NCBI RefSeq assembly: GCF_965363235.1
Contig: NC_134838.1
Span: forward strand, 14,974,441 to 15,038,440
DNA from: Mytilus galloprovincialis
Taxonomy: Eukaryota; Mollusca; Bivalvia; Mytilida; Mytilidae
Length of the DNA: 64,000 nt
Direction of reading: 5' to 3'
In this document: positions 8,889 to 55,700 of the stretch, in pieces
Layout: the number at the start of each line of letters is the position of its first letter
How positions within the stretch are numbered: the stretch's first letter is position 1
The notes under the pieces: model-generated
Seen by the model: only the letters and a program-made list of their open reading frames with translations
Database searches by the model: none
Told to the model about the DNA's origin: nothing
Program-made: the position numbers and the translations under genes

Positions 8889-9850
8889 AATTACTGTGTT
8901 TTCTTTTCCACATCACCAGTAAATCATGTACATGCATTGTAGGACATATACTATGCACATAAAAATGCACATTTTATGTTTAATTCAGTTTACTAATACT
9001 AACAATAATAATTGATTAATTGTGTACAAGGCAATCTGTACTAATGTCTTTTACAAACATTTAATATAAACATTAAAGTATGTCGCTGCGTTCGTTAAAG
9101 GTCATGATAACCTTGAGGAACGTATCATTTTCATATTCTTTGTGCGTAGCTCAATCAATCTGTTTTAAAATTTTGCCGTGTTGTTATTCACAAATACACT
9201 CTTTGCTATTGAATAAACACTGAGAACAGCAATGTAACCACTGTATTTTGGCTGGGACTTTGTCACGTGCGTGTGAAGATCTGGGTCACAAAATGATACA
9301 CCGTATCCCTTCTTTTTCTTTATCAAGGTTAATTCAAAATTTACAAAGTTTGTCTATTGAGAACTTCTGTTCTTTCAAGTAATTTGGAAATCATACATTT
9401 AAAGACAACTGTATGCCACCTTCGTAGTTGGTCTTGGCACGAACCTCAATACCGATATGGTTATGTGAAGGGGTATCAGTTGACGTTTAATCGTCTCATA
9501 ATTTGGGACATCTTCAAGTTTTAATTGAAATTTATTTGTTCTTGAATTAAATTACTCGATAGACTTGATTACTTAGGAATTTCCATCATAGCCTAATAAC
9601 CTAGTCTGCTAAACTATTAACTCTCATATTCGTATGGTACATGTATACTATACCTACATGCATAATTATGAATCTTTATATGAAGAAGAAAAATGTGTAT
9701 TAACCTAAATAAGGTAAGAATATAACACATAAACGGTATGATTATACACATCTGCATAACAGTTATATATTTAATCTAGACAAAAACATTGATATATAAT
9801 AACATTGTATTTGCAGAACAAAAGCCATTAACATGTAAGATCAAAAGTCA
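8889..9850. other. no gene seen
   Basis: AT-rich sequence without exon-like blocks or clear repeats. Confidence 0.5.
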
Positions 9851-9854
9851 CACA

Positions 9855-10190
9855 CCATGTTCAGGTTTTTATTGGTCCACATACCAGGTTCGGGTTTTGA
9901 TTGGTCCACTCACCAGTTTGGGTTTTTAATGTGTCCACACTCTTTGTCACTCCAGGTTTGGATTTTAATTGGTGCACACACCAGGTTCAGGTTTTATTGG
10001 TTCACGAACCCGGTTCAGGTTTTAAAAATTTACACACCAGGTTCAGGTTTCATTGGTTTACGCACCAGGTTCAGATTTTATTGGTTCACGCACCAGGTTC
10101 AAGATTTATTAGTTTACACAACGGGTTCAGTTTTTTGGTTCATACATCAGGTTCAGGTTTTATTGGTTCACACACCAGGTTCATGTCTTT
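9855..10190. repeat. about 29-bp minisatellite
   Basis: About a dozen imperfect copies of a unit built on CACCAGGTTCAGGTTTTATT and GGTTCACA. Two overlapping open frames (9857-10192 and 9901-10224) arise from the repeat and are not genes. Confidence 0.9.
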
Positions 10191-12040
10191 AAAACAGTGT
10201 TTGAACGATGACACACATATATAAGATCTCTAGAAATTGTGTAAAAGGATAACCTTCAAAATTGTGAAAATGCTGATGGTCCAAATTCAATGAAACAATT
10301 AAAGTTTCGTTTATTCTTTTGAAAACATCACTTCGTACTGTGTACTGTAAGTGTTGCATTGCTCGGCATACTTTACCTTGTTTTTATCGTCTTATGATAA
10401 AGGGAAATTTGTTTACTACTTCAAAGACATTTCTTTAAGATTCTTCTGCAAATAGTTATAGTTCAAAGGAAAAAAATGAAACAATTCTTAACGTAACCTT
10501 CTTATAATTGATATTTAGAACTTAATAAAATAACAAGATTACAAATGTGCACATTAATCCATACTAAGCCGGTTATTTTCCCTTTGTTGACCTTGTGTTT
10601 ACTTTTGCATTGATATATGATCATTTGTTAAGGCATTAACATTTTTTAATTGTTATTAACCTTTGTAGACAAATATATTGTTCATATGTTTTTCTTTGTG
10701 TCGTTGGAAGTCATGCGAATTAATTTCTTGTATCAACTGCACAATGCAAAACATATATATATGGCATTACATATGATCTAAATTTAGCTTTTAACTTACA
10801 CTGTTGAGATCTGTTTGATTTCTTGCTATAGTAACACAAAATCTGAGGCAACACATGTAACATACAATTTTTTTAAAAACGATATTGATTTAGGATATTA
10901 CGAGTTTCAACTATAATACTATTTGTACAGATGATAAATTCTTATTTTAATAATATTTGCAAGACAATTTTCTAGAATAGTATGTTTGAAAAAGCCTTAG
11001 CGAACTTAAAATTGAAAAGAAAATTGAATCAATGGGTCTGCTTTTCTGTTTTCAGCTCTTTAGTCGTGTAGTTGTCTCATTGACATATTCTCCATTTCCA
11101 TTCTCAATTTAGTACTTAATATTTTAATGATTTTTCTCAACACAGACGATCGACTCAAACTAGGATCTACTTGTATGACAAACGTAACGATTTCAGTTTC
11201 CTCATTATAAACTTCCCATTTCTCATTGGACTGGCCTAGTATACTGTATAGCCCCTTTTGGAATTCATGTGATTCCCTAATATTTTCACATGGTTTGTAT
11301 CTTCAAAATGAATTTACGAAATTTGCACACGGGGGTTTACATACAGACTTAACGCTTTTAAATATTTGAACTGTTACATGAAAGGAGTAACGATTTCAGA
11401 TCAAGTTGTTAAGTATCAAGTTTAAGAACAGAATACTAGTAATATATCTTGATGAAATTTATTGGTCTAACATATCTTTTTTTCAAAGACATACTATATA
11501 AATAACAAGTCACTGCACAATCCAGTGATTAAATTGTTAGTTTTTTTTAATATAAATACCAAAGGTTAGACAGCTTTTTACAACATGCGATTACGGTGGT
11601 AAAATGTTGCATTAATCTTCGAATTATGTTTATTTTGGGAGTATGTGTTCCAATTTGTTTATATTTATTTTTTATAAGATTAACGGTATCGTTATATAAA
11701 TTAAGCTTATGTAATTATCAATAAATAATTAATGTTTCATCGTAAATTTAGCAATAATTCTGAAATGTGATCCAAAATGGGTTTATAGAAATAAAAATAA
11801 AAAGATGAAGTAGGATTGTCATTCAGACAACTCTCATCAAAAGACCAAATTACACAGAAAAAATATGATGTAAAAGAAATAGAAAATTCATATAATGTAA
11901 TATATAGACAAGCAAAAAAACCCTAACTGTTAAATAAAAGGGCATACAACACAGACACATTTTATTTACTCACTGCATCCACACAGAACTGTATCAAACC
12001 CGGGTGTAAATATAAAAAAAAGAAGAGTCTTAAATGTTTG
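10191..12040. other. no gene; short repeat fragments
   Basis: AT-rich. Around 11025-11110 there is a fragment with TTTTCTGTTTTCAGCTCTTT, GTTGTCTCATTGACATATTC and TCCATTTCCATTCTCAATTT, a mussel-type repeat tail also seen near 25840 and 48500. A weak GATGAAGTAGGATTGTCATT..CAGACAACTCT fragment is at 11803-11860. Confidence 0.5.
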
Positions 12041-12575: not shown

Positions 12576-12599
12576 ATGGAAAGAACATTTTTAAAGCCT

Positions 12600-14440
12600 G
12601 GCAACTCCAGCTGACAGGGAAGCCGATAATTATACTGATACGGATTTGAACCTAAATGTAAGGTTCGATCTATACGAAAACGATTATCAAGAACTAGTTT
12701 TCAGTAAAGTAGAAGTTAAAGAGGCCATTGAATTGTTGAAAATAAACAAATCACCAGATGTATTCGTTCTTACAGCTGAACATCTTAAATTTGGTGTAAC
12801 AGCTTTGATGTATTGTATTACTGAAATAATAAACAGCTTCTGTGAGGTACAAAACATCCCAGATCTCATAAAGTTGGGCATACTCTCTCCAGTCTTCAAA
12901 AGAAAAGGTATGAAACACGAAGCAAAGAATCATAGAGGCATCACTGTTCTACCAGTAACAGGAAAGTGCCTGTAATTCCTACTCCAAAATAGACTGAGAG
13001 TACTGATTGACGTCTTACAAAACCCTTAATGAGTTAATTCTAGAAGATGTGGATAAGAAGGTCCCATTGCACGTTTCATTTTTTGGATGCAAAAGCCGCC
13101 TTTGATGCAGTAGGCCGCTCAAGCGTATATAAAAAGCTCTTTCTGGTAGGTTTCACCTGAAAGCTATGGATACATACATACCTACTGAGCCATTGAGCAA
13201 TGTCCTCGGTCAAAGGGATAATAAATTCACAGAACCTTTTTCAATCCTACAGGGAGTAAGACAATGTGATGTTCTCTGACCTACTAAAAGTGTATGTACT
13301 CCAGATTCTGTTACATGGATTAGAAATCCTTCTTTCTTTGAGAAACGAGTTGCACGCAAATAGAAATATTCTACAGAAAAAACCTTGAAACAAGTACTAT
13401 CAATAACAAGTACAACGCCAGATTCAGCAACATACATGTACATTCTAGCCGGAGCTGATCCTTTAGAAAGCAACATTCACAAGAAAGCCCTTAGAATGTA
13501 TGATGCAGATCAGAGAATTCAATAGAAAAAGAAATAGCAGAAAGGCAATAATGTTTCAAAGGAATAAACGACAGTATTTGGTTCTCCCAAAGAAGGCAAC
13601 TACTAGCAATCAATGAATATCTGGCACTGAGATATTTGACAATCCTCCAACAACAAATGTCTGGAAAAATCGTGTATAATGCAATATCTTGGATACGCTA
13701 TATAACAGACATTGTAACTCTGTATAATAAGATACATTATATTGGAATTGACCAATACGCCATTGGAGCTCTCCATCCGGCATTAGCTAGACGTGTTAAT
13801 ACAACAACGAATAGAGATGACGCAAGACTACCGGTAAAGCTAAAACTTATGACAATAACCTACTTACTACATAGTACGAGAGCAGCTTTCAACCAGAATC
13901 ATTAGGCAGCAACCATTTGATTTTCTGGGGGAGGGGGGGTGCTTTTTTTCTTTCAATTTTAGCATTACATATAGTGGCAGCTGAGGGTGAAACAAACAAT
14001 TTTTTTTTCTCAGAATCAAAAACTAATTATTTTTTTCTGCAAAAAATGGAAACAAACTTTTTTTTTCCAAAAAAAAACCATAGCCACCCCCCCCCCCCCC
14101 CCCCCCCAGAAAATCAAATGGTTGCTGCCTTAGACCCAACATGCCAGACTTTCTCACAAGATGCAATCTTTTTGTCATCTATAAAACGCATGTCTTTCTT
14201 GCTTTAATATTACAACCTTCTTAAAATTTCTGTGTGTACTAAGTGTTCCATCAAATGACATTAAAACAATAGATACATTATGTATATTGAACCCGAGTGC
14301 TGTATTCTGTGTACAATGTAACTGTACTCACAAGCTAAACCTACCGGACCACCTTAGACGTAGATTGTGTTTTTCTTTACACGTAGGCAGAAATACAATT
14401 CTCAACGCCTTGTCTAGTAGCAAGAGAAAGGTATTAAGGG
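12600..14440 (+). mobile_element. degraded LINE (non-LTR retrotransposon), reverse-transcriptase part
   Basis: The frame 12646-12975 encodes the fingers region of a LINE reverse transcriptase: EVKEAIELLKINKSPD...EHLKFG and LGILSPVFKRKG...NHRGITVLPVTGKCL, a classic block. Further on, in other frames, come FLDAKAAFDAV near 13080-13110 (motif A) and LQGVRQCDVLS near 13243-13270 (motif B'). The catalytic ADD motif is not found. A C-terminal stretch STRAAFNQNH (to 13904) resumes after a nested element with DPTCQTFSQDA near 14131, the start of the C-terminal Cys-rich region. There are multiple frame breaks and an inner deletion, so the copy is dead. The clade is not assigned; a CR1/jockey-like relative is possible. 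Confidence 0.8.
13905..14129. mobile_element. 225-bp inverted-repeat MITE inserted in the LINE
   Basis: The left end GGCAGCAACCATTTGATTTT (13905) and the right end AAAATCAAATGGTTGCTGCC (to 14129) are perfect inverted repeats, extending to about 27 bp with CTGGGGG/CCCCCAG. Both flanks carry TTA (ATTA|...|TTAG), consistent with a 3-bp target duplication of the TWA kind used by PIF/Harbinger elements. The inside is poly-T/poly-A rich and holds a run of 21 C (14087-14107). It is non-autonomous. Confidence 0.85.
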
Positions 14441-25200: not shown

Positions 25201-28200
25201 AGTAAACAAGATATGTTTACCTTTGTGGATATCTTATCTTAATAAATCTTACAACGGTTTTGCAAGTTACAACAAACAGTAGCTTTCACATGGTTCCCGT
25301 AATAGATTGTCCTTTTTTGACGTGCATATGTTTATTTTGGAGGTCATTTGACGTGCATATGTTTATTTTGGAGGTCATTTGTGGTCTAATTCATAGCTAA
25401 TCAGTACAAATATAAACGTTCTTAAACACCTGTCAATTATTAAACAAATCAATATTCGTTTCGTGATCTGAACTTGGATAAAAGTCAAATCTGGAAAACT
25501 CCAATACTTTCTTTTTGATATCTTGTTCTTATATCAAAATGTGTCACTGTAGTATGCTTATGTCTGCACATTTGTTATCATACCGAGCATAGTGCATTAT
25601 TTCACGGTTTTCACGACCTGATCAGGATTGTACAGTAGTACAGGTATCAACAATCAAAACAAAAATACATCATAGTTGAATATAACCCATTCCGATACCA
25701 ATAGTTTAGTGTGACGTCCATTTTAGCTGACTTAGTATACATTAATGTTAAGGGGTCAGCTAAAACCAGCCTCCGTTTGCGGGACCTTCTCGCTGTTTTG
25801 AAGTCCCATTGGTTTGGGTTTTGGGCCCTTGGACAAATTTCCCGTTTCCATTCTCAATTGTGAAAATACAAATAAAAACCAGAAAGTGATGTATTTCACA
25901 GTCATCGGTACCTTATAATAATAAATAAAATGCAGTTCATATTTAAATTTGGACCCAACATGTCTTAAAACCACAAGATACACAATATAAAGACTACCTG
26001 AATTTTTCAATTTGAATCGGCCTCAATGTTTTTCTTGATAATATTAAAATCGAAATCTAATAAATAAAAAAACGACATATTTCGATAGACGAAAACATGT
26101 TTGTCCTGAGAATAAAGGTTTACTGGTTTCTCCCATATTTTTTAAAGCCTTGTTTTTATTCCTTTATATATATTTTCGTGACTATAAAAATGATTAATTG
26201 CACATTTAGAAAACGATCATCTTGATTAGTTTATATATTGCATAAAATTATTTTATTTATATTTTACATTATTTTGTTGGGCGTTATCAATTCATTATGT
26301 TCAGTTCATTGCTTCAGTTAAATACTTTACTTGACTTTTAAAGAAGAAATAAAAAACTTCAAATATCTTCTATACGTAGTTTAAATAAGAAAATATCAAA
26401 TTTCGTTTAATTAAACCATATCAAATGTACATGTTCATTATTCAATAATCGTGCTTATAAATGAGCAAACATGATAAACATCAGCCGTACTGACTCTATG
26501 AACCGAGCTTGAAACAAATCAATGTGTCTCTTCGATACAACCGGTCCAGATAAAGTTTCAATTTAAAAAGAGTTATTGACTCTTGAAAAATATATGAAAG
26601 ACAACAGTCGCTCAACGATGTTGAAATCTCTTAAATCTATTTTGTTTTAAATTTAGATACGATGAAAAATGAAACACAAGTGCATAATTTATTACCAACT
26701 ATAAGTTGCACCACAAGACCTCTTTCCAAACAACAAACATCAATTTAAAAAAAAATAATTAAAAAGCTAAATGCCAAATATAGAGCAGGATCTGATAACC
26801 TTTCGGTAGTACCAGAATATAGAATACAGAATATTTATTATTCCAATCAAACTTTTTGTTATTGCAACTGATCTTGTATATTTCAGACACCGAACAGTTT
26901 ATAGATATTTGAAGTTTCAAAATGCTCTGATATTAAATTTGTCTCAAGGCTAGAATTTAAAGGGTTTGTCATTGAATTTGACGTAAACTTTTCAATTAAA
27001 CATATTTTCTAAATCATATGTATTCATCCTAACACAAAACGACATGGACACACATTTGAAAATGTTGATATGAAGTGTCTGAAGTATTAGCCTTTGACTC
27101 TTTGACTTAGAATAAGTCTATTTAGAAATAAAAGATTACATCAATTCTATTAAATGCTTTAAAGAGACAGTTGTTGTTACCCTTCTATAATACATACATA
27201 ATGTATTTCATTGAAATTGAAATTGAGAAGTGGGTTGAGCAGACGATACATGATTTATTTCCCGTGTCAAAATTCTTAATTCAATTCAAAATATTGTAAA
27301 AGTCACTAACAAGGATGTGATATAGTGTTCTACATACTGTGTGATGCAAAATGTCTGCGTTTTCGTTTTCTGATTGCGAAAGATTAAGTAGAGGAAACAG
27401 TTTTTCGCTACCACCTCTGACACATGAAAAACACAAATTGGATATATTTCTATGTCCGTCATACCCGTCTGCAGTACATGTGTTTCCAAAGCTAAATGTA
27501 AGAATTGTTTTCCTTTCAATTTTATTTTTGTCATATTCAAGATACTAATTAAGATTATTTCAGCATTTGTGAAACCGTCAGTATGTCTTCAAGTTTTAAT
27601 CAATTCATTTGTTATGATTTAGGTCGAGATAATATTTATAGTTTTTTTTTTAGGGAGGTCCAAACAGTCTTAACTCGGAAATAAGTTCACAATATTCTGC
27701 CAAGTATAGAAGTTCATCAGATCTCAGCCAAACAAAAGTTGCCAGCTCGCCTTTCTTGCCCAAGGTAAGTGACACCGTTCTTATAAAATATTTATAAATA
27801 CTATAACAATTACTAGTAGTTAAAAACAAACATGGTTGCTTCCTTTTCCACACCAGTGGCTTATAAGTGTTTAAAAAATGTATCTTTTAAATTATGTTTA
27901 AAAGAACAACAACGTCTGAGTACGCAGATTTTCATCAGAAAACTTCCAACTTGATTCTTTAAACGGAAAATCTAAAAATCAACGGGCACATATTTAATTC
28001 AAAATAGCAAGCGTCACTGCAATGTAAGATAATAAATGCTGGTAGCTCCGGGAAGTACAAAAAAAAAACCAAAGAAATTTTTTTCAATGAAATGTAAAAT
28101 ACAAATCTCAATTAGCATAAATTGTGATGCTATAAATTAAAGTCACTTTAAGATTTTGGATCGGAACATTGCACTTTCTAACGTTTGGTAAAAGATAACA

Positions 28201-31200: not shown

Positions 31201-34200
31201 ACCAATATCATCTTTCAAGTGATCGAATATAGCATATTTCAATTTATAGATTAAGATATTTACAATCTATAATAACATGTTTATCTATAGCAACATGTTT
31301 TAATTCTGGATGTTTTTCATTTCAGTCTGAATCTGAGGAATGTCTCAAATGCTTATTAAAGGTTCCTCACAAGAGGTGTGAATCGGTAAGTTCAGAAAAA
31401 ATATTCAGAAAGACTTTTCGTAACACTAAATATTTTGTTATTGTGTATCGGAGAGACAGCAGGAGTTCATGTCACTTGTGGCCACAAATGTTCATAAGAA
31501 TACAAAGATTCATCTCAAAGATACAGAGATTAAATCTGCTGAAAGTTACCCGAGGAACAGCCCTTCTAGTAACATAGAACTTTTTTGATAAGCTTCGACT
31601 GTTTTCCATGTTATATTTATATGCAAAGTTTCTAGTCATGACTTTTATACACTCCACTCGATCGGAGAAGGCTTTTGAGGCTGTTGGTATAATTTTGAAT
31701 TCGACCCATATGTAAAATACAGGCCAGGTAGTCCTAAAAGTCATTTAGTCAGATTTTGAGAGTAGAAAGTAATTCGCGTCAAAAATGACCGAGTCAATGT
31801 AAAACTTACATTGGCCAGTTGCAATCACATTTCTTTAGAAAAAGACCTGTTATTTTATGGTATTATTGCATAGATAAATTGCTAGCCAAAGTAAAAATTT
31901 CAATGTTAAGTAGTCAAATTATTTTTTCAAATCAATATTGATATCACTTTGATATAGATTAAATAAATCATGCTCATTTCAAGGTTTTTAAAAACTTTTT
32001 GAAGTACACTAACATTAAAAAGAATTAAATGTAAATTACTTGCGTTGATAATGTGTTTTATATATTATACGTCTTTAACTTCTGTTAATCATTTGACCTT
32101 TTGAATGGCAGATATGCCTCCAAGAATATACGGATCTTTGGTGTATATTTGAATATGTATTTAAACTGAAACGTAGTTCGTCTTTCATATTTTTTATATC
32201 AAGGTTGTTTTGAAAGTTATAAGACATTTTATTGAACTCGAAATGGGGGTTATGCATCTCTAATTTCTGCACATGCATTACTGTAATTAAGGAAATTAAT
32301 GAGGTCTATGGAATATATTATACCTAGTTTCAACATATATAAATTGCTTTGTTTAGAAAATAATTATAATAATGACACTTGTCAAATCTATCTAAGTTTC
32401 TGTATATATCTTTCAAGAGGTATTAAGACAGGTCAAGTTTTGGTGAATAATGCTTATGCTCGTAAAGGAATCTGTAAGAAATCTATGATGATATTTCTCT
32501 TATTCGTTGCATTCTCATTGGTTACCAATGCCATGATAAACACATACAGTGATCTTAAATTTCTTACTTCGAACTTTAAGCAGAGAGTAATTTCTTGATA
32601 ATACATTTCAAGTATAATGCATGAATCTTCTGCTTCAAAGACATTTTCATGTTTTATTATTCGCTTATTTGAATGTTTGGGGGAAAATACAAACTTGTCC
32701 GATCACCTTTTTAAGTATAAAACCAATTTTTTGGAAAAGTTGGAAGAAAACTCGTGTAAAATATTTTGATGAATTGATTACTTGCTTGGTATATTGATTG
32801 ATTTTTTATATGTTTTTCCTTTGTATATTTTCATTTTGAGGTACATGTACCATCTGGTAAACAAATCATTGACTACAAATGTATATACATGGTTTATGAA
32901 TATGTTTCAGCACAAGTATATCAGAGTAGGAGGTGGTTATCGCCATGGTTACTGGTATGTTAAAACCCTGTTGGAGGAACTTGAACTTCAGGTATATAAT
33001 GGTTAAATGTACTCAGTTCTCAAGGACTTATGAGCAGAGTATTTGTAAAAGGATATGCAGAGGAATGTTAAAAAGCCTCTTCTAATTGTTAACCATTTTG
33101 ATATTTAATTGTGATACTTTTAATGGGAAAACCGCGGTCTTTCTTGGAAATAAAAATAAAAAAATCAGAAATATTATGTGAACGGAACAAAAATAATTAT
33201 CGAACCCAGGGTATAATAAGAAGAGTGATGTAAATCATATTATACTGTGACCCGTGTATAAACTACATTTTCAGTTGAATTGGGGCTCGGAATATTCAGA
33301 AATGTCTTTGTATAAACTTAAGGATAATATATATATTTTTTTATGTACAGAAAACTGCAAATAAAAAAAATTAGAAAATCCTTAACCAACAAATTGAAAC
33401 AGAATGCCATCATAAAGGTACAAATGTCATGTTCCCACTGGTAATGCAGGATAAATGTTTATTTTTTAATGATATGTCTTCAATCTAAAATAATTTTTGT
33501 AGTGAAATATCAAGATATAAAATATTTAGATTTGTCTTCATATTTACAGAGACAACGAGAATTGATTCGTCAACAGAGATTGCAAGCAATAACAGAAAAA
33601 GGTATGTAAGATATAAAAAAAAAACATGGAAAAACTTTCAAGAAAGTCAGTATCAAAGTAGTAAGACGTAAAGATACAAAAACGTTTTGAACCGAATAGT
33701 GATAGAGTTTACATGTTAAAGTTGACCTTAACTAAAAATTGTTTGCTTTTTTAACATTTATTTTTTGGTGTGTTTTTCAGAAGTGAAAGCTATAAAAACA
33801 TATATAAGAACTAAGAGTGGTCGTCTTATAGAAAAAATCATATTCTTATCAGAAGAGGACTATGCAGCTTTCAAAGCAGGCAAAAATGTCGCCGACATTT
33901 TATCAAAATATTTATCGAAAGACGAAGCCGCCGGTTTGGAATCATGGGACAAGGATGAAGTCAAAGCTATTAAAACATACGTCAGAACCAAGAGTGGCAG
34001 GCTGATCGAAAAAGTGGTATATGTTTCTAAATCTGACTATGACGCAATCACCAGCGGCGCAGCAGACGCCAAAGATCTATTGAAGAAATATGCTGGCGAA
34101 GGTGAAGTAATAGAAGGATGGGATGAAGCCAAGATGAAAACGATTAAAACATATGTCCGTACCAAAAGTGGACGTCTAATTGAGAAAACAATAATGATAT

Positions 34201-37200
34201 CACAGGAAGATTACGACGCAATGATTAGAGACGGAAAGAATCCGAACGACATTCTTAAAAAATACCTGTCACTTGATGATGGTGAACAATTTGAATCATG
34301 GACTAGTGCTGAACCAATGAAAGCCATCAAAACAATGGTTCGAACAAAAAGTGGGCGTTTAATTGAAAAGACAGTGTATGTCTCTGCAGAGGACTATGAT
34401 AAACTAATAGCAGGTGGCGGAGACATGAACGAAATTCTTGGGAAATATATGAACGATGACGATGGTAAGATTGAAGGATGGGAAAAGGCTCCATCTAATC
34501 CCATGAAAGTAGTTAAAACATTCATTAGAACCAAAAGTGGTAGACTAATTGAAAAACAAATTCTTTTAACTGAAGAGGAATATAGAAGATTTCAGGAATC
34601 TGGAGGTGATCCGGATTTCCTCAAACAATTTATAAAGTTAGAAGCGGGTGAAGTGATTGATAGCTGGGAGAAAGCTTCAACAGTCTACTCTGCCGGGTCA
34701 GATGTTAGAAATGGTAATTATTTGTCAATTATAATGTACCATATTTTTATAGCAGTCTATTAAGTGACGATTTTTGAACTAAACTATTGAACTATTTTAT
34801 ATATATTCAGACAATTTTTTTCTCTTACAATGTTTAGGTAGTATGAACGATAAAACAATAACAAATAAGTCAAAAATTATCGTAAAGTTATTTCTTTCAA
34901 GAATTTATCTTAAACACGTATCTTGAATTTTTTTCGTGCATTACACGAAAGAAGCAAAATATGTCACACAAGTAGCATATGTTTGGTGTACAGCCTATCC
35001 TACTACGCATATATCACCTATTTAAAAGCAGCCATTAGTTCATGTTCGTCAATTTAGTTAGAAAGTAAGAAGATGCGGTATGAATCCTAATGAGACGATT
35101 CTCCACCAGAACTTATTTGAACATCAAAATCTAAATGTAATAATGTTATAATTTAATCTTTAAAGCTAAGGAAGGACAACGCATTGTTGGAAAAGATGGT
35201 CAGATCTATGAGGTCGTGGTAGATCCAATTACGGGAAAGAAATACAAAAAGTAAGTAGAAAGTTTTTTCATTATCATTGATCTAGACGTATACACTTTTG
35301 TTTAAGGGACGGCTGAAGTACGTCTCCTGGTGCGGAATCTTTACGCTGTATTGAAGACTCATTGGTGACTTTGGCTGTTTTCTGCTCTTTATTCGGGTTG
35401 TTCTCTATTCGACACATTCCCAATTTTTATGCCCCACCTACGATAGTAGAGGGGCATTATGTTTTCTGGTATGTGCGTCCATTCGTTCGTCCGTCCGTCT
35501 GTTCGTTCGTCCGTTCGTTCGTCCGTCTGTCCCGCTTCAGGTTAAAGTTTTTGGTCAAGGTAGTTTTTGATGAAGTTGAAGTCCAATCAACTTGAAACTT
35601 AGTATACATGTGCCCTATAATATGATCTTTCTAATTTAAATGCCAAATTAGAGTTTTGACCCCAATTTTACGGTTCACTGAACATAGAAAATGATAGTGC
35701 AAACTTCAGGTTAAAGTTTTTGGTCAAGGTAGTTTTTGATAAAGTAGAAGTCAAATCAACTTGAAACTTAGTATACCTGTTCCCTTTGATAAGATCATTC
35801 TAATTTTAATGCCAAATTAGAGAATTTATTCCAATTTCACGGTCCACTAAACATAGAAAATGATAGTGCGAGTATTGTGGACACATTCTTGTTATTCTTA
35901 ATTTTATTCCGATTAAGATATGATTTGATCTGTGTCGCATGTGAAAGTTTCTTTCAAAACCCTGTGAAATACATACCATAAGATATAGCTATCATCTGAA
36001 CTGTATGGGTTCAATTGTTTTTCCCTAGCATCTGATGAATCTGGACGAGTCTCAATACATAAGACATATTATAAATTGACTTCATTTTTGTTGATTCTTG
36101 TCAAACAGTAAAAGAAGAAAAAATAATGGTTGACACAAAAAGGGTCAACTGTTTGTAGTTTTCACTGATATACAGGCAACGAAACAGAGTTTTTTTCGGG
36201 TATTGTCTCATTTCATAACTGCTTTCATTTAAGGAGAGTTGGAGGAAAAGAATCTGATATAGATAGTGGGTTTGCGTCGATGCAAAAAGGAAAGAAAGGA
36301 AAAGAGGAAACAGCAGAGGAAAGAAAGAAGCGAAAACAAGGTGGTCGAGATGCTGGAAGTGACAGTGACTACAGTTATAGAAGTGTTGTAAGTGCTGGGG
36401 GTACTCGACATGTCCGACGCCGACGTAAACATGCCGATGGCACGTACAGCGATAGCGAATCGTACCATAGTGACAAAGACCCAGAGGGAGCAGCCAGACG
36501 CAGGCGTAGAAGACGTGAAAGAGAACATCAAAACAGTGCCCATAGTTATTACAGTGTGACAAGTGAAGGTGGCACGAGAACTGTTCGAAGAAAGAAGAAA
36601 AATGCTGACGGAACATACGGGGACTCGGAATCTTACCACAGCGAGGACAGTCACAAAGAAGGAGGTGGTCTTGCAGAACGGAAAAAGAAACAAAAAGAAA
36701 AGACGGAGAGGGAAGAGGCGGAAAAACGAAGAAAAGCTAGAAAGGAGAGGCATGGTAGTGGAAGTGATCATAGTTATTTCAGTGAAACTAGCCAAGGTGG
36801 CACACGCACTGTGAAGAGAAAGAAGAAAATCAAAGACGAGCATGGCAATGTGATTGGTTATGGTGATGCTGAATCATATCATTCTGGTAAGGGAGAAACA
36901 AAAACAAACCTTTTTGAATACCGCGATATTTTGTGTTGCGTCATTATGATATCTTTATGCTGGTAAATAGTTAAATTATCAGTTAAATATAAATATGATG
37001 ATGATGATACATAAATTAATAAGCTTTAGTAAAATGGTTATTAACAAAAAAGGTATTTATAGATGTCAATTTAGTTCAATTTTGTTGTTGGTTTAATGTA
37101 GCATTGATATATGTTCAAAATCAAACCGATCATTTGAATAGTGTGGGGTACACATAAATTTAAGAAAGATCATTAGTGAAGTTATTTTGGATTTTATTAA

Positions 37201-40200
37201 CATACCATCAATTACCAGAAAAAAACATAATGACCTAGCCACTATTCATTACACGAGAAATTGGATTTTCGGAAAGAAATTACAATAAAGCATATTTACT
37301 ATACGATCATTTTGCCATATATTTGTGTGTCTAATTTTATTTGTAAATGTATAATGGTTTTCTCCTTCTTTTCTTTTCAGATAACGAAAGGTAAGAATTT
37401 AATTTATTCGGCAATTAATAATTTATGTATTTAGAAATTTCTATCGTTTACCAGGAAAACGTTGAAATCATCAAGAGAATAATAACCTGTAGATATTTAA
37501 TCAGTTTTAATATGTTTTAAAAACATATCAATTTTCATTTTTTTTTCTCAACATATTTACTGTCAATGTATGAAAGTATCTTACAGTATTTAAACAAAGC
37601 TTGTTTATACGTCAGACGAGGGGGTGTAGTTTTCTCAAGCTTTCTTAAGAGATACACAGTTCTTCAAATATTAAAGTACAATTTCTTAAGCTCTTTAATG
37701 CACAATTTGTTTGCAGTGAAAATTTGAAGTATATATTCCTTTTAATTATAATTCAAGAGTCAAACACTTCGTCACACTGTCAACCGTGTATCAATGGTTA
37801 AAACAAATACAGATTGTTACAAAAAGCTGTTCTTTTACAATTTATTATTTATCTAATCATTCTGTTATATAATACATCTCTGAAAGGTATACCAAAACAG
37901 GGATAGTCTTTACTTTTAACTTTTTAGTAAAGACTCTCCCGATCAAAAACAAGATAAATATGATATCCAAAATTTGAATTCGAACGGTACAAGATAGATA
38001 CTTAAAACTTAAAACATTTTTAACTAATGGAACGTAAATATAAGGATTAAAATCGGTGTCTTTTAAATACACTAATGACAAAAATTAAGGTCTTTTACAG
38101 TTCGGATTCCAAAAATATTTTAAATCAGCGATATAATACAAACATTGCATGTTAACATTATTAACAGATGTAAAACGACTTAATATTAAAATACTATAAA
38201 AAAAAAACTCAAAGAATAACAATTTCCAATATTCAAATTAAGTGTATACACGGAAGTATCGGATGGAAAAGGTGGAAAAATTAAAGTAAAGAAAGAAAAC
38301 CCAAAGAAGGCAGGTGCCAAAGGCGGCAAAGATATCCCTGGTCTAAAAAAGAAGAAACAAAAAGATCCCAATGCAGTGTTTAGTGATAGTGATTGTACAA
38401 CAGATTCTGATGATGTTGACCTTGAAAATATGACCGAGGAAGAAAAGAAAGCCTATTTTAAAGGCAAAGCAGAACGTGCAGCCGCACGTGAAGCACGCCG
38501 TCGTGAAAAATACGGGGATAAATACGATGAAATGATGTCAAAACATGCCGAGTATGAGTATATTTTGGGAATTGGATGTGTATTTTGTATCACTAACATT
38601 TTGAACTATACATTAGTGGCTTCGTATGCATTAACCACTCAAGCACAAATATAATGTATACCAAGGGAATTGGCAGCTTTTAATAATTGCTTTTATAACA
38701 TTCCCTCAAAATTCATATGTTCTCAGTATAAATAATACTATATTCAGCTTTATTGTTTTAAAGGTAGAATATACTTCAAATCATCTTGAAAATGACATTA
38801 AATAAGATATAGTTTGTTGTATAATGGATACTTGTTCATTATAATGGATCGCAATGATTAAAACCTTATTTAGGGGGTGTTATGTGCCTTGCATCCCCTT
38901 AAATTGGTCCCAAATATGAAAGTTGACAAATTTGCTTGAATTTCGAAGTGAAGTGTAGTACGGATATACACCTTATCGCAACTTTTGAAATACTAAAGAT
39001 TTTCTTATCCCAGGCATAGATTACCTTTGCCGTATTTGGCACAAATTTTTAGAATTTTGGGTCCTCAATGCTCTTCAATTTTGTACTTGTTTGGCTTTGA
39101 AATTGTTTTGATCTGAGCGTCATTGATGAGTCGAAACGCACTTCTGGCGTATCAAATTGTAAGCCTGGTCAATTTGATGACTATTGTCAGCAGTAAATGA
39201 CACCACAGACGTTTCTGTAAAACCTTTACACTCCAAGGGAAATGCTAGAGCGTAAAACAAGTTATTGATTGGAAGTTGTCAGTTGTGAAAGTGGGGCAAA
39301 TTTAACTGTTAATTGTTGCAGTAAGTCAAATATAGATATAGCCTATATTAAAATTTAGTTTGCAGACCTTGAACGCAAATTCTTAACTTTTCCTTGGATT
39401 TCAATGGTTGAGTTTGTAAAACTGTCATATATTAACTTGAAGCGGACTTTGCATGAACCACGGACTGAGCTTCTAATATAAAATGATGATGTATTGTATT
39501 TCTAATTAATATATTTTTTTCTATGTATATATATAACTAATCTCCCTTTTTTCAAGAATGTTTATTATGGGTCTTTTAAGTAATATGTAGTAAATAGTGA
39601 TGTCTTTTTTAACATAACCATTGCTTTTTGGTGTGTGTTACTTTGATTTTGATTCAGATTGTTAACATCTAATGATTTGAGATGGACATTTTGTCATCAT
39701 TGTTTAATGTTATTTTTCATAGTTTTCCATATAATTAAAACAATCACGTTAGTTGAATTAATCTTGAATTCAGATGTCTACAATGGTTTATATTAGAAAT
39801 GTACGCTTAAATTTTATTATGTTTTAAAACTTTACCAATTGGAACAATTTTATTTTAGAAACGTACGCTTATATTTTATTCTGCTTTAAAACTTTACCAA
39901 TTGGAACAATTTTTTTTTATGAAACCCTATTTAATTACACATTATTTTACTGATGAACTACTAACTAGTATTACATTTCATTACTCCAATAATATAGATG
40001 AGGGAGCTGCATATTTACAAATAGAAATCAAATTCGATGGATACTCTTTTTTAGATTTAAGGAACAAAAGGCCGAAGAAAAGAAAAAGGAACAGATAAAA
40101 AAAGAGAAAGAAGCCAAGAAGAAAGCTAAGGAAGAATTCAAAAAGAACAAATTACAAGAGCTTCGTGATAGAGGATTGATAAGTCCGTCATCTGATTGGA

Positions 40201-43200
40201 CCATCGATTCTGACACTGGAGAACCATTGAGGAAAGCTCAAAAGTATGAATTTATAGAACATGAACTTTTCTAAATACTAGTTGTAGAAAGTAAAATAAA
40301 AACAAACGAATGGACAACAACTGTCATATTCCTGACATGGTACTGGCATTTTCTTATGTAGCAAATGGTTGATTAAACCACCTGGTTAATCATTTGATAA
40401 TCACTTTACTAATTAATTTTTGTTTTGCTATCAAACATTATGACATCTTGTGTTATTTCATAAAATTGAGGATGAAAATTCGATTTTCATTGGGACGATA
40501 ATATGACGCAAATGTAGCAATTATTATTCATAAATAAATTTTGTATCGTATACGTATTTGCATTCTTTACACACATAGCTATTCAATATATATTTATATC
40601 GAGTTATACATTTTGGGATGCTGAAAGTGGTTTCAATGCATTCAATTTCACACATTTAAAACTACATTTAGTGATATATTAAACTTCGCCAGTTCTCCAT
40701 TCTGCTATGTATGTGTAGACATCTTGCATCGTGCTCATAAGTTGACGATATATCAATTATTTTCATTAGAGCTGAAGTAAAAGAGAAGAAAAAGCAAAAG
40801 AAATTACAAGAGCTTCGGGATCAGGGGTTGATTAGTCCTTCTTCAGACTGGACCCTGGATTCGGACGGAGAACCAGCCAGACGATCTGAGCTTGTAAAGT
40901 AAGTTGAATTGGGTTTTTTTTCCAACAGAACAGTGCGTTTTCTTTGCAATAATTTTATTAATGTATAATAATGTGACTTTTTTGTTTTGTGTTTGTTTTA
41001 CAAGGATAGTTATTATAATCATGAAATTCAAAATTATTGATTTTTGTTTAGTGTATTGCTTCCAACATAAACAAGCAACGAATTGCTAGCGTTAAAGCAC
41101 ATAGACTCTTCACAAAATGTGACTTAACTCAAATTAGAGTTATGCGACTTAATAAATGGCATCAATGTCTAAATCGTAACGTAATTCTTTATATCTCAAA
41201 ATTAAGGCAGAAGAAAGATAACTCTGATTCACTTTAAGATTAAATTCTATCCTAAAGAAACTTGGTTTGTATATTTTCTTGATTAATTTGATATTGTATA
41301 AGATGATAACAATGACAACACTATATAAATTCCTAGCTTGATAATAAGCATGTGAATACGTGGCATCATAAAATGGACATCAGTATTCAAGAATCAGTTA
41401 CAGAATAATTGTGTAACAACATATTTAGATTACATATTGTAAGAACTCAAAATTAGCCTAAAATTTCAATAGATAGAAGCAAATATTTGTGAAAATGAAA
41501 AAGAAATTTGTTGTGGTCATTGATAATAACATTATTAAAGATTATACTGCACTCTTTTTTTCTTCTTTTTTCTAATCTAGGCAAGGAAAACGACCACCAG
41601 GAGAAGATGGAAAAGGAGGAAAAGGCGGGAAAGGAAAGAAAAATAAAGATGGTAATGAAGCAGACGACGAAAGTGATGAAGGTCAGTTCAAGTTTTGTCT
41701 TCTGAACTTTTTTAAGAAGAAATAAGCTGTTTGCTGTAGCTGGCTTGAAAGCTTTCATAATATGGAGATCATTTTTGCATCTTCAATTAGCTTTATATTT
41801 GTGTGTTAGAGATTTTAATCTGGAGGGAACTACCAATGCATGATTTTTCCTTTCAGTCAAGTCACTAATTTCGAGTCCACAGATTTTCTATACTCTAGGG
41901 TATATTTTTAACATTATGTTTGCCTATTTGCACGACTCATATTTACAATTATTGAAATAAAATTAACTTTCATAGAAAACTCTGAAGTTCTCAGTTGCAA
42001 GTAGTGTAAACGTACATTAACTCAATCGATGCAATGCTGTGTATGCATTTACAAAGTTGATCTAACTTACTCATACGGAAATATTGAAATTTCTGTTATG
42101 CATACTCCCTTTTATTCTTGTTATACTTTGTACCCATGCTAGCAGATGTATTCTTATAATTATATAATATATAGACAGCCAGGTAATAGCATACTGCTTC
42201 GATATATTCCTTTCTAGTAAATTTAATTGAACAATTAAAAGATGTATATATTAATATTTATACAATTGAGTAGTAGAAAGCCTGCCAGTTGCAATTGTCT
42301 GGAGTCAATGGTTCAATAAATATGTATATGTTAATAATAATAATGCTAGAAACTTATTCGTCGACTCAATATACTCAAAACAAATATGTAATCTCTTTGA
42401 ATAGACTGACATGATATAATGTAAAGTATAACATAAGTGCGCTAAAATATTATATGCAAGTAGCTTTAAACCGGCGTATTCGTGGAATTGTTTAATCGCG
42501 TTTATACATTGCAAGATTGGTTTTGGGACCACATATATAAATGAGGTAAAGATTCCATCTTTCATCTTTTGATTTGCTACCTAACAAAACTTAACTTTCT
42601 GATATGCTTGAAAACTAATATTATAACTTGTTCCTGAATTAATACTTGTGTTTTGTCGAATAATATATTGTGTAATTTTAATTTTAAGCTGGTTAAAACA
42701 TGAAATACAGGTAATTTGCGATGCATGTTTCCCCTATTTATTGACCATTGGTGTAAAAAAAGACATCTATTCCTTGTTTGCTGACTTTTTTACAACTCAA
42801 TTTCCAATTATGTGATGCCAAACTTATGACATGATCGAAACTGGTAACTAACGACGTTTCATTGTAATAATGACAAAAACAGAATAGAAAAAAAAGACTA
42901 TCATACAAAGGAAAGTTTAGCTATATAACAAGGGTTAATTTGCCATTTTCTAAATGAGGCAGTGCCTGTACTAAGTCAGGGAAATGGCAGTAGTTTCCGT
43001 TTTGTTTGTTGTTTTTAAGCTTTTATCATTTGATAAATGACTTTACGTTCTGAATATTCATTGGAGTTCGATATTTTTGTTTTTCATTTTTCACAAGAGC
43101 ATGATCATAATCTTGAATGATTCAAGAAGGCTAAAAGTTAGATACAAAACACAAAATAGTACCTTACACTAACTGACTGAAAAGACGAAAAAGAGATAAT

Positions 43201-46200
43201 ATTACCTCTCAAAACTGTGTTTTTTTTTTCAATTTAATCTAGCATGCTTTATCCTCCCGAAGTTAAGGTTTTGTTCACATTGCTGTGGATTTTACGCACT
43301 GTTGAAACATCAACCTGATTGTGTATTTGCTAAAATAAATAGTATAGAAATAAATAGTGTTTATCTCCTGGATAAGCAATTTATAACATTTTTGTTTTAT
43401 TAATTTCCCCAGTTAATAATGTTCAAGTAAAGGAATAATTGTAAAAGGATCATTTGAAAATGATAATGTTTGTATTTATTCCAAATAATTTAAGAGATTT
43501 GAACATGCATAAACTATTCGTTCCGTGTATTTAATGTAATAGAAATATTTTACCTTCTTTCAACATATCATATGTAGTAAACTTATGAATCTGATTCAAT
43601 ATCATTGTTATTTTTACAGAATATATTGATCCTGTAACGGGTGAAGTCAAAAGGAGACCTAAACAAAAAGATGGCAAAGAAGAACCAAAATACAAATATG
43701 TAAGTTGTTTAATTAGGCAAGAAAACACGATTTCAATACAGCAATATGTTGCGAGGGTTAACGACCCTCGCTACACACGAAGGTCTTGCACGCTCGGCAA
43801 ACATATATGTAATAATATTGCATGGTTTTATTGATTATTGAATAGTTATTAAACAACATAAATAAATAATTGATATGCGTATTTTATCAAAATAAGCACA
43901 CGATTGCTAGAATACAATCTACTCATACCACAAATACTATAAACATCTGTGCTCTTTAAATTTTAGACACATATAGCAATAAAGTTCAAGACAATATTGG
44001 TAATACATATAAATGTTACTTCGCTTTCTTTTAGGAATATGATGACCAAGGGAGAGTTATACGAAAAACAAGGATAAATGCTAAGGTATGCCAGATTGCA
44101 AAAACATAAATTATATGATGGACTGTAAGATTTAATGGATATTAATTTCCAAAAATGAATGGTTTGTTGTATATGGTTAATTAGTGTTACCATAAACTCA
44201 TCATAGATATCAGGATGAAAATGTGACGCGGAACATGCGATTGGTCTACAAAAGACTAATCAGTGATGCTTAAATACAAAATGTTAAAAAAGGGCAGAAT
44301 TAAGTACGAAGCTGGATATCATAGAGGAGACAAAATTCAGAAAGGTTTTTTCAAATACAGGTGAAGTAATCATTTTTTGTGGTTAAATTTTTTTATTGTT
44401 GTGAAAAATTACGGTTTAGCTAATTATTCTAATTCTAAAGATATTTGATTCATTTGTAACGTTTGATATAATTAATATGTCAGTAATTACATTTAATGAA
44501 TGCTTGATTTCTCTTTTTCAGCCTGGTGATGAAGGATCTGAGTACGAATATGATTATGGTAGGCATAAGTAGATGTTTAATTGTAAGAATGCAAAGACTA
44601 ATTTTGTAATCAATGGATAAAGAAATTCTTATTTGCAGATACACTTTTCCAGTACATTTTTTGTACTTGGTTTTATGTATAAAAGCTCATCCAAATATAC
44701 AAAACTCCAATGACATTTGAAAAAGGAAACATTTGAATATGACAAAATCAAGTACTGGACTACATGTATAACGACTAACGGAACGAATGCAAAACAACTG
44801 TCGTATTCCTGACTTAGTACAGACATTTTCCAAAATTGTTAAGCAAACCAAACAGACACAATTATCTAACATGACAATAATTTGGATCAAAGAGCCAAAC
44901 TTGTGTTTACATACATCACAAGAATACAAAAGAACATTATTAAAAATCAAACAAATTCCTTAACAATTGAAACATCACTACACATATATCTGACAAAGAC
45001 GCCATTATTTTTTTTCTCACAGATGAAGACGGTAATGTCAAAGTTAAGAAAACAAAGGGGAAGAAAGGGGGTGCAGGTATGTATTACTCCATTATTTTTA
45101 TTTCAACAGGTATTATTGCGTTTCTTACTAGTTTATTTGATGACGCCCTTTTTACGAAATGACAAAACAGTATTGAACACTCTCTTAGAAAATCACTTTT
45201 TTCAATTAAAACGTTTCATTTAAACCATCCCATCAAATGCAAATTTTTTAAATATCGTGTAATCATATTGAAATACGTTTAGCATATTTAATATTGTCTC
45301 ACAAATAACTGAATCTTTATTTTGGTGCATTTTTTATCTGTCTTGTGGTGTATTAGTAATAAACAAAACAGCTGTAGATAATTATTTTTTCAAATGGAAT
45401 TTACAAACTTTTGTTTCGTACCGGGTTATGTTTTTTTTTTTTGTTCATTTACAATAACTGGTACACACGTTATAATGTTTGATAAGCAGACATCGCGTAT
45501 AGTTCAAAAAAGAGAAAGAAAAAAAACATGATCCGAGTGCCTTTTCTAAAACGTAGACTTTTGTCCTTACAATTATTTTGCATAGTTCACGTTTCCTTAT
45601 GAATAACACTTCCATATATCTGTTTCGTCTAAAAGAAAATAATGACATTCCTATGAAACACTTAAAAAATGTAAATTGGTTTGAGCATTATATATACCGT
45701 AAAATTAGAGATCAATATTTTAAATCTGTGAACTATAATTATTCAAATGTCAAGATAGAGCATATTAACTTCACCAATTAAAATGTATTAGAAGGATATT
45801 CAGTTTCTTGTTAATTTTTTCTACTAGCCCAAATACCCAAGGTTACCTCATAAAAATATAGTGAAGGAATAAATTGTATCATTACCTATGATATATGGAA
45901 CAAGAATTAATTTTCTAAATTTGAAGTACAAATTGCTACAAAAGTATGTAAAGTAAGGCAACGACATATTTATTTAATAGGCGATGATTCCGATGACGAA
46001 CAGTTTGAAGTAGGAGCTGATGGTAAAATAAGATTAAAACCAGGCAAAAAGAAAATTGATCTAGATAAGCTTACCGATGATGATCTGCGGAGATTGGGAA
46101 TTGATCCAACGTTATCAAAGGCAGAAATTGCAAGAAGATTAAAGGTAACATATTACGTAAATTTATACCTTAATTTCAGTTGTGAGTAAATAATTGCAAA

Positions 46201-49200
46201 TTTCAATTTCAAAAACAAGTTCTTGAAATTCAGAAATTATTTCGAGGTTTTTATTTATGCGAATAATGCGGCTAAATTTATAATTGTAATGATAAGAACT
46301 CGCATTCTAACATATTATACATATATCTGTATGCAGAGTATGCAAAAATTAGTATGATCCGAATAATTAATGAATTTGCAGTATACTATAAGTATAAAAT
46401 AGAAATTATTAAAGCCAGTATAAGTTTACTATTAAAGCACTTGAATAAGCTTCAGAACACTGTCAAACATAGCTTAATTAGTGATATAGCTTTAGTATAT
46501 AAGACTTTTTTTCATAGGAAAAATTCGGTGATGATATCGATATTACTGAAGGAAAGAAGAAGATAGGAACAAAAAATATGGATGATTATGGTAGTGATGC
46601 TAATACTGATGACATGGCAAATGACAGTGACCTAGATGTTTCCACATGTAGGTTATTACTAATGAAGTTTGTTATCAAAATACAGTAAACATTATCTACA
46701 GATGTGTCTTTTGGAAAAGGATAGATAGCGACAAATTACAGACATACATGTAGCTAAGTTCGAATAATTGTAATCTGTTTGTTAAGATAAAGTTTGTTGT
46801 TTTTACTTAATAACACATACATATTTGTTAATATTGAAGTTGATGCTGATGATTCACATATTTTAATTTTGAATACAATATTTTCTATTTAAGTAATCGG
46901 AAACAAGAGAGTAAATGTGAAACTGAAGAGAGGTGGACAAGCCATTATAGATCACATGAAAAAGATTATAACACAGTCAAGCCTAAGAGAAGAAATAGCC
47001 AAAAATTTAGATGAAAGAGGTAAGCAAAATTATATTTTTTCTTCCCAAACATTAAATTCCTTAAGTCGTCTGTTTCCCTGTTCAAACAGATTGATGGTTG
47101 AAAACTTCATATAATAAATTCAAATGCAGAAACTATATACTGAACATAATCAACATTTCATATCTTAATAAAATTGCAAAATTCAGAATTGTCTAATCAG
47201 GTACCATAAGCAAAGACTTTTGCAGGAATCATACAAAATATGACCCAAAAAAAAATACTGTATTTTTCAGCACTAGCATTCATAATGACAGTTTTGCTTT
47301 TCTTATTATAGGTGACATTGACTTTGTAACACATTATCGTCTAGTTGACCCCAATAAAGTGGAATCTTATGCAAAAGCATTTGTTGTAGAAGATGATGAC
47401 ATGGATACGGTTTTATCGTTTAAGGTACATAATAATTCACATCTACTTATGTCATAATTAAGAGCTTCTTATATTATGATTTAGAGCTCCTTATATCATT
47501 AGATGGTATAACTTTTTAATTGATTAACAATAATTTATAGTATGATAGAAAATTACTTGAGATTAAGAGCTACTTACATTAATCAAAGAGTTGCTTATAA
47601 CGAGATTCAAGGATTCAGAGCTACTTATTATATAAGTCATAGCTTCTTCCATTATAATTTAGAATTAATTGTACCGTGATAGAGAGCAACTTTCATTATG
47701 ATTATGGACCCTTGAAAAAAAGGATATAGACATTTTAAAGCGATACATATGAGTGATATTTGATTTTGTAAATTTTCTGGTCTTAAGGAAACAAACGTAG
47801 CATTGGATGGAGTACCTAGTGTGCAACAAATGACAAATAAACAGCTGGATTATGTGCTGAGTGTGAGTATTAGTTTAAAGATGTTCAATTATATTTGGGA
47901 TAACACATACAGTTCAGGGTCTACTTTTCGATAGACATGAATAATTCATTTCATTTATTGACAAATTACGAATTACTTATCTGCCTACCATCTGCTACCA
48001 TTCCGGATCAGCTGAGTTCTCTCCTATGTTTTTGGTGGAGATCTGGAGATCATTTTGCTCAGTCTGTAGTTTTCCATGTAGTTTTCTGCGGATTTTTCCT
48101 TCTTTTTTTTTTTATCTAAATGACAGTCAATCAATAATTGTTCTAAACAATACAAAATTGATATTTGATATTAAATTCACTTCTAACACATTCCACGAAT
48201 AACAATTACAAATCATGACTACTTTGCAAATATATTTATGCTTAATTTACTAATTTTAACACAATATAAAAAGGATAAACCTGAATATAGATTCACTTGA
48301 TAATTTTGTATTTAATTGACTTATTTTTTCATCAAATAAGAACTAATTTAATGTATATTTCATTCTCTCTGGCAGGTTTTGAATCTAAATGATGCATCAA
48401 GGGTAACATTCCGAATGTTTGCTGTGATATCAGCACTTTGTGACAGAGTAACAATGATGGAGTAAGTTTTTTTATAACTTCAACATAAATTTTGTCTCAC
48501 TATAGATAAGGCGTTTTTTCTGGTTTCTGCCCTTTGATCGTGGATTGTTGACACATTTCCCATTGCCATTTCACTTTGAATATTATAAGATTCAGCGATG
48601 TTCAATTGTTTTGCTATGATATTTGTTTGAAGTTAAAGATGGAATTTATCAAAATGCATACTTTTTATTTCCAAATATTTTATTTGTTATATTTTAAAAC
48701 TTGTAGGAATTTTTGGTCCTCAATGCTCTTCAATTTCGTACTTTATTTTGCCTTTTTAACTTTTTTTTTATTCGAGCATCACAAATAAGTCTTTTGTAGA
48801 CGAAACGCTTGTCTGGCACAAATACATATTTTCTATCCTGGTATCTATGACGAGTTTATTTACAGTGAAACAAGACGTAAATATGTTTTTTTCCTAAAAT
48901 ATATCAAAAAAATCCTTATGAAATAATATGGCGTAAAGTAGGATTTCCTAATTAACAAAAAATAAAATTTCTATTTTTAGTCCACTCAGCAAACATTTAT
49001 TGGAAATATGTAATTTACTCGATATAGAAAGGAAAATGGATTTATACAAAGCTATGTTTTACTGTAATGTGGAATCGGAAAGAGATAACAATTTTATAAA
49101 AGCGGAATCCTTAAGGATAGAACTGATTGCTGGTGGACTGAACTGGAAGCAACAAGAATTCATCATGGAAAGATTGCAGCCAAACAGCTTTTTCGAGGTA

Positions 49201-52763: not shown

Positions 52764-55700
52764 GTGAGTACAAATTAGATGCCTAACAATTGCACTATTT
52801 GTAATTTTCCTGAATTCACATCTTCCAACCTTCATTTAACAAACTATAATTCAGTTCTCTTTGCCTTATTTTAAGACACAATTTAAAACCTTCACTCACT
52901 TAATTTTTACCTATTATGTCTGTTTGTTTTTTTTTCACACTTTGTTGTCAATATAATGGAATTGTATGTGACTGTCATACAAAAAAGAGGTTTCGCTAGC
53001 TATAAAACCAGGTTCAATCCATCATTTTCTACTTAACTTAGAAAATGCGTGTATTAAGTCAGGAGTATGACAGTTGTTATCTATTCATTTGATGTGTATG
53101 AGCTTTTAATTTTGCCATTTGATATATTTCAGGAAGAAATTCAATTGTTTCGTATATCATTAATGAAACCTACAATTTGACACTCTGATCGTTGAAACGT
53201 CATAGAAAAATTCACATACTGAAAAGTAGTAAATTCACGAAAATACTGAACTCCGAGAAAATTCAAAAAAGAAAGTCTATAAACAAATGGCAAAATCAGA
53301 AACCCAAACACCAAACGAACGGATAACAACTGAAAGTATACACCAGTTATTCTGGATTGTCACTTCCTTCATTTTACAAGACACTTCTAACCTATTTTTT
53401 TCAGCAACATTTCCAGATGAAGATACCAATTTTGTGTAATTTTGGAGTTAAATATGCACCTGTTATTTAAAAATAAATTCAAGAATTGTTTCCATCTTTT
53501 ATTTTCAAATGTTAAAATGTTTGTGAAATGTTGTTCTTCATAGTTTATTTAAAATATCAAAATGTTCTCTGTGGTTGATACGTGTATATACCATTACAAA
53601 ATATTAATTAAAGATATTACTCGTTTTTACTCAATAAAAGTGCAATTTCACTTCAAGAATTCGATTTGTATGTCCTGTATACAGAATATAACGTCCGCCA
53701 TATTGTTTTCAACAAGGAGTTTGCATACAAGATATATAAATCGATTTTCTGAAGATTGTGTGTACTTTTATTAATTATGAACGCATTAAACATTATAGTT
53801 GTATGCTGTTACACTAATTTTACACAGTATAACACCATTCAAAATTTTGTTATCAGAATATATCAGTTTGTTTTGGGGAAATTTCGTTGTTCTTGTATTT
53901 CTCGGGAAATCGTGGTACCCTATCTCTTGTTGAATAAGAATTGTGTGCAACCCCAAAATTGAAACATTTTTCATTTCCTTTTACATTACATTTTTACTAG
54001 AATGCTTTTGAAAGAACATTTAATGAATATGTCAACGTTTATATTGGAGATAATTTGTTCTAGGGTTCGATATGTTAGGAGATACATTTCCGTCGCCAAG
54101 ATTCCAAAGTTCAGTAATATTGTTATTTTACTTTTTCCTTTGTAAAAAGCTTGGGTTTTTTTTGTGTTTGAATAGAGAAACATTGTTATAAAATAAGGTT
54201 GAACAATTCCTGAGTTAGATGCGTCATCGAGTATCCAGGATAATTGTGATTTTTTTAAATCATGATTTATAATTGAATTATCAGGTTATAACTAACGTGA
54301 CGGTACCCAGATTGCACCTATTTTGACAATTTTTTCATCTACGTTTTTTTATGATAAAGACAAACATGTCCATTCTGTGTTTATTTTGTAGCCGTATCCT
54401 TCTTTATTATAAAGGTACACCAATTTGATTTTTATTCCATATGGAATCATAGAAAAATTGGTCTAAACTGACCTCCAAACCATCAATGATTCTGAAATGA
54501 GGAGTACCCAAATTGCATCCATGCTTAAATTCACATCGTCAAAAGTCTAATAACAGAGCTTTTGTTAAATTTCTTCAAATATTTTGAACAATTGGATATT
54601 AGTCCATGCTTACTCTTCATTATTTTTTAAGTGGATACTTGTAACATATTGTATTTGCTCATTTTAAAAAGATGACGTTTTGATGACGTCGCATGGCGAC
54701 GTTTCAGTACATTTTGTTGTTTCAGTAAATACTTCTTCTGTTGATAAATACTGTGAACGTTTTGTGCATATCTAAATAGTTTTACCTATGTTGAAAGATG
54801 TGCTTAGTATCAAATCATAAAAATACCAATTATTTAGTCTCTAGGAAATCTTGTAAGATTTTCGCTGCTAGTTTTGCTAAATAGGTGCAATTTGGGTACT
54901 CGGTGCAATTTGGGTACCGTTACGTTATATACAATTAAAATGTACTGTTTACTTTATCAATTATTCTAAATTCACCATATCAGATACATATCATACATGT
55001 ATAATTTGTCTCTGACCATATTTTTGCTATTTTTCTAAAAGAATAAACAAGAAAGGTAAAAATGATGGAGGAGGAAAAGGTCAAAATGGCGGCGGTGGAA
55101 AGGACAAAAATGGTGGAGGTGGAAAGGGCAAAAATGGTGGAGGCGGAAAGGGTAAAAAGGGTTCAAAAGGAGGGAAGGGGAAATTAACGAAGGAAGAAAA
55201 ACAAAGACTGAAGGCAGGAAAGAGAAATGCTGACAGTGACAGTGATTTTAGCTATCGAAGTGTTGTCAGTGCTGGCGGCACACGTCACGTGAGACGTCGA
55301 CGTAAAAGAGCAGACGGCACATACAGTGACAGTGATTCATACCATAGCAGTCAGGACGAAGATGGCGCAGAACGACGACGCCAACGTCGTAAAGAAAGAG
55401 GAGATCTCGATACAGAAACAGGAGATAGTTCTAACCCTAATACCAGCAATGGAAGTCGAGATCATCACCATGATGGAGACAGTGATTATAGTTACGCAAG
55501 TGAAGTTAGCGAAGGTGGTACGAGATACGAAGTCAAACGCAAACGACTTCGAGATGAAGATGGAAATATTATTGGATATGGTGAAAAAGAAGCAGCTGGT
55601 GATAATCTCAGTGATACAGAATCTGTAAAAACAAGACGAGGTGTACTATTTTTAATATATAAGATTTTATTATTATTAAATAATTATTCTCCTTTATAAA

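Follow-up and report, generated by a model that had tools for sequence, protein, structure and literature searches.

Spectrin, filamin and similar cytoskeletal proteins carry small globular domains in tandem, strung like beads and presenting one repeated surface. The array described here resembles such proteins in this respect; the exon encoding the array has no Pfam match to them. By fold, the single repeat unit was compared with YkzG (PDB 4njc), an RNA polymerase interacting protein which we take to be the epsilon subunit of that enzyme. It was also compared with the ribosomal LX/eL20 domain (2jxt; 9e6q chain AR, presumably the same protein), for which the result was non-significant and no PDB sequence match to the unit was obtained. 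The locus lies within a stretch of 64,000 nucleotides of the mussel Mytilus galloprovincialis, referred to below as the window.

Repeat array and its invariant core

The exon of interest (33781-34713, + strand, 933 nt) is open throughout in the frame from 33783, as judged by its translation and by the phases of a 22-exon chain, and its product comprises 310 residues. The sequence-only reading of this DNA had described five tandem units of about 60 residues within it, and the five unit starts and a protein alignment bear this out. On the + strand, these are unit 1 (33783-33959, 59 aa, core 33807-33836), unit 2 (33960-34133, 58 aa, core 33984-34013), unit 3 (34134-34316, 61 aa, core 34158-34187), unit 4 (34317-34502, 62 aa, core 34341-34370) and unit 5 (34503-34685, 61 aa as aligned, core 34527-34556). 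Successive starts are 177, 174, 183 and 186 nt apart, corresponding to 58-62 residues, and unit 5, at 47%, has the lowest identity to unit 3 among the other four. Also as described there, RTKSGRLIEK is identical in 5/5 units and every unit closes with SW or GW (ESW, EGW, ESW, EGW and DSW in units 1-5). Invariant columns make up 16/63 of the alignment; ten of them form the contiguous core, and the others are K2, K5, T6, Y27, L41 and W56. An invariant run of ten would arise by chance with a probability of about 5e-6 if 16 such columns were scattered at random among 61.

The contrast between a fixed core and diverging surroundings, likewise part of that reading, is also apparent at the codon level. 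The ten core codons give five identical translations at a mean pS of 0.89 (a counted pN of 0.04 is an artefact of paths between synonymous codons, the translations all being identical), whereas codons 19-31 have drifted, with pN 0.43 and pS 0.78. These values indicate that the unit copies are old and point to strong purifying selection on the core.

Gene context and genomic distribution

Using a splice-site and coding-score script followed by joining of exons by hand, we modelled the surrounding gene (gene A) from sequence as 22 consecutive + strand exons, from 32911 to a stop codon at 50481. The phases agree and a stop codon occurs only at the end; the AG/GT ends were picked and hence constitute no test, which instead lies in the open, in-phase joining. 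The resulting chain has 1330 residues and an incomplete N-terminus, and candidate further exons with whole-codon ends are located at 27654-27764 and 31326-31385. The five-unit exon, flanked by TTTCAG and GTAATT, matches exons 33550-33601 and 35166-35250 in phase. Upstream, the phase-compatible chain comprises 32911-32991, which holds YIRVGGGYRHGYW, and 33550-33601; downstream it continues with 35166-35250 and 36234-36886, the latter encoding SDSDYSY...GGTRxVRRKKK...DSESYHS repeats. The last 17 exons (38257 to 50481) run to the stop codon and encode a C-terminus of about 417 aa common to a tandem paralogue. The intron 3' of exon 35166-35250 harbours two 166-nt direct repeats (35535-35869, 89% identical) adjoining a CGTC/CGTT-rich stretch.

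By eye, exon 32911-32991 (HKYIRVGGGYRHGYWYVKTLLEELELQ) looks like the final part of a GAS2 domain (RVGGGY). GAS2 (PF02187) was rejected, with no Pfam family found for this exon at E up to 10, and the exon was absent from the 19 genome places listed. The 417-aa C-terminus has the look of a degenerate EF-hand, an assignment that was also rejected, as no Pfam EF-hand was recovered at E up to 1. For this region Pfam listed 117-like_vir (0.027) and SAM_1 (0.029), neither of which reached its cut-off, and the matches among PDB sequences were all non-significant (NADAR 0.2, RIB22 0.24, Xcc 0.9). Together with the long charged chain, these likenesses suggest, by eye only, a cytoskeletal setting.

Part of the paralogue, gene B, lies on the + strand between 55042 and the window's end at 64000, and the gene continues to about 70 kb. 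It shares with gene A the GGTR/DSESYHS exon, an SDD...TEEEK exon and the C-terminal region, and the divergence of one C-terminal exon between them (pS 0.94, pN 0.19) argues for two old copies under constraint. The C-terminus has a further, more distant relative (37% over 82 aa) on contig C10 at 26109341-26109574. The low-complexity repeats SDSDYSYRSVVSAGGTRHVRRRRK.ADGTYSDSESYHS, three in gene A (36234-36886) and two in gene B (55042-55640), have genome matches at E up to 0.001 only at this locus.

The unit itself is confined to the one exon in all our searches. An unfiltered unit profile run against six-frame open reading frames of 104 kb around the window recovered only the five units, and the same profile detected none in gene B or in 30 kb around the C10 copy (next best E 3.1). 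Since the paralogues keep the C-terminal region without a detectable unit, the array appears to be dispensable for whatever the family shares. Against the whole genome (1,384,861,812 bases, 331 contigs), the only match to the exon protein at E up to 0.001 is the exon itself, and a single unit searched at E up to 10 recovers the five units alone, in a protein search that scores best candidates only and may miss a much diverged copy. Written as a degenerate DNA pattern, KSGRLIEK has five matches genome-wide, all in the exon, against two for a backward control pattern.

Elsewhere in the window, overlapping open frames at 9839-10224 contain recurring HTPGS- and VQVLLVH-like stretches and are probably a minisatellite, and an open frame at 12595-12975 has, by eye, the appearance of a LINE-type reverse transcriptase fragment.

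Search for a known family

The view that no named domain has this core was upheld by Pfam-A, NCBIfam and PDB sequences, which gave nothing above threshold. DUF2024 (PF09630) was followed up as the top sub-threshold Pfam row and because its solved example, 2hfq, also appears in the fold comparison with the unit. The 310-aa exon product scored 24.1 bits (E 3.5e-5) against a gathering score of 27 bits, and a 913-aa chain containing the exon scored 12.1 bits (E 0.19). Units 2, 3 and 4, three of the five, searched singly against Pfam, matched none of its families at E up to 1. The C-x-x-C-H motif of DUF2024 (C55, C58, H59) is invariant in the 13 sequences aligned from 35 loci, whereas the exon product lacks any cysteine and thus the motif. 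An hhalign comparison of unit and family over 29 columns, itself picked as the top of 24,736 families, gave a probability of 19% (P 0.0012), well short of indicating homology, with control pairs at 0.1% and 0.2%. Score, motif and the profile comparison all speak against membership of DUF2024, which was rejected.

Ten other Pfam rows for the exon also fell below their cut-offs (Astro_VPg, 3.4e-4; Tom37, 0.0013; DUF4172, 0.0017; Elong_Iki1, 0.0017; six weaker). NCBIfam returned three rows, the best at E 0.0041 and 17.4 bits (cut-off 123). Among PDB sequences, the exon query reached a best E of 1.5, and the unit profile a best of 0.018 for RSC8, composed of two stretches with an i-Evalue of 55 each. 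Two scans for prokaryote and viral relatives, seeded by short core-region peptides so that relatives lacking these would escape, confirmed 0 of 75 and 0 of 73 pattern stretches. RTKSGRLIEK and shorter or variant core strings were not found in the open-licence papers searched, and among the listed titles of the topical literature nothing was evidently about the module. We therefore use the term undescribed for this putative module in a defined sense, namely absence from Pfam-A, NCBIfam, PDB sequences and the open-licence papers searched.

Predicted fold and proposed role of the array

Given unit 3 and an alignment made of the remaining four units, AlphaFold2 predicts strands at 2-9, 15-22 and 52-58 and helices at 24-32 and 37-44 (mean pLDDT 85.4, pTM 0.62). 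When the 310-aa exon is modelled as a single sequence, the same order of elements recurs five times (pLDDT 77.9, pTM 0.46); unit 1 gains a short extra helix, and confidence is low over residues 235-239 and 299-310. The unit is predicted to be a folded bead, a compact strand-strand-helix-helix-strand domain of about 60 residues. The pTM of 0.46 means that the prediction fixes neither the relative placement of the beads nor a rigid ruler. Mapped onto this model, RTKSGRLIEK would form the first hairpin, running from the end of strand 1 through a TKSGR turn into the beginning of strand 2, with a tip that the secondary structure suggests is surface-exposed. In 5/5 units, residues 1-22 hold six K/R versus one D/E, and the remainder four to five K/R versus nine to ten D/E. 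The whole unit is near neutral (10-11 K/R, 10-11 D/E), which weakens a simple polyanion-binding idea.

We tentatively propose, with somewhat less than even confidence, that the exon encodes a five-bead array whose identical basic hairpins dock multivalently on a spaced acidic partner, the nature of which is a guess. Each bead would carry one identical basic tip on an otherwise net acidic unit, and the five hairpins would act together by multivalency on regularly spaced acidic sites, most likely, we guess, those of a polymer of the cytoskeleton or of an acidic coiled coil. The remaining long, highly charged protein would tether or regulate the array. A wider version, in which the units represent an undescribed domain family, perhaps of a single animal lineage, with basic tips that gauge how an acidic polymer is spaced and a tip serine acting as a possible phospho-switch, seems to us rather unlikely.

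The sequence-only reading had suggested a repeated binding or assembly surface, and a constrained core beside drifting codons 19-31 fits a surface of repeated function. The core falls on the predicted hairpin with its S-G turn, so part of its invariance may be structural, and some of it may be conserved for folding alone. Taken to its extreme, this would make the core invariant solely through fold nucleation or stability and the array a spacer or an elastic linker lacking any specific partner, as the paralogues with no detected unit would allow. Charged residues are usually exposed, however, and folding alone seldom fixes them, yet R9, K11, R14, E17 and K18, whose exposure we infer, are also invariant despite near-saturated synonymous divergence, and we regard this explanation as doubtful.

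The hairpin might instead be a repeated phospho-switch, the five turn serines being phosphorylated to change the charge of the array. R-T-K-S fits the basophilic kinase consensus R-x-x-S, R9, K11 and S12 are invariant in 5/5 units and S12 falls within the predicted turn; a kinase site alone, however, needs no ten fixed residues, including the L, I, E and K past the turn, and we consider this reading unlikely. Poorer still are the prospects of head-to-tail stacking, in which each basic hairpin would pack against the acidic portion of the following unit, within or between chains, to form an assembly: a charge division that recurs in identical order in every unit would suit it, but the single-sequence model offers no confident inter-unit packing at its pTM of 0.46. 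Homogenisation is common among tandem copies, but recent duplication or gene conversion, rather than function, as the source of core identity is exceedingly improbable, because most synonymous positions of the core DNA have diverged (61.0 differences at 68.7 synonymous sites in total for the ten pairs).

The array beside known domains

If the module is truly undescribed, it is a small natural domain under strong constraint, employed in tandem and so far seen in a single gene of a large animal genome. The vocabulary of charged scaffold proteins would gain a domain, and five sequence-identical tips on diverged scaffolds would offer a clean setting in which to test multivalent binding. The best Foldseek rows for the unit are two small, uncharacterised viral proteins in BFVD, M4Q4Y6 and A0A8S5P0X7, the latter from a siphovirus (E 0.024 and 0.049, both above 0.001; probability 1.00; query TM 0.64 and 0.57), with 10-15% identity (46-52 aa). 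DUF2024 is a single domain, present in bacteria and archaea in the loci found, whereas the mussel module is deployed as a tandem array.
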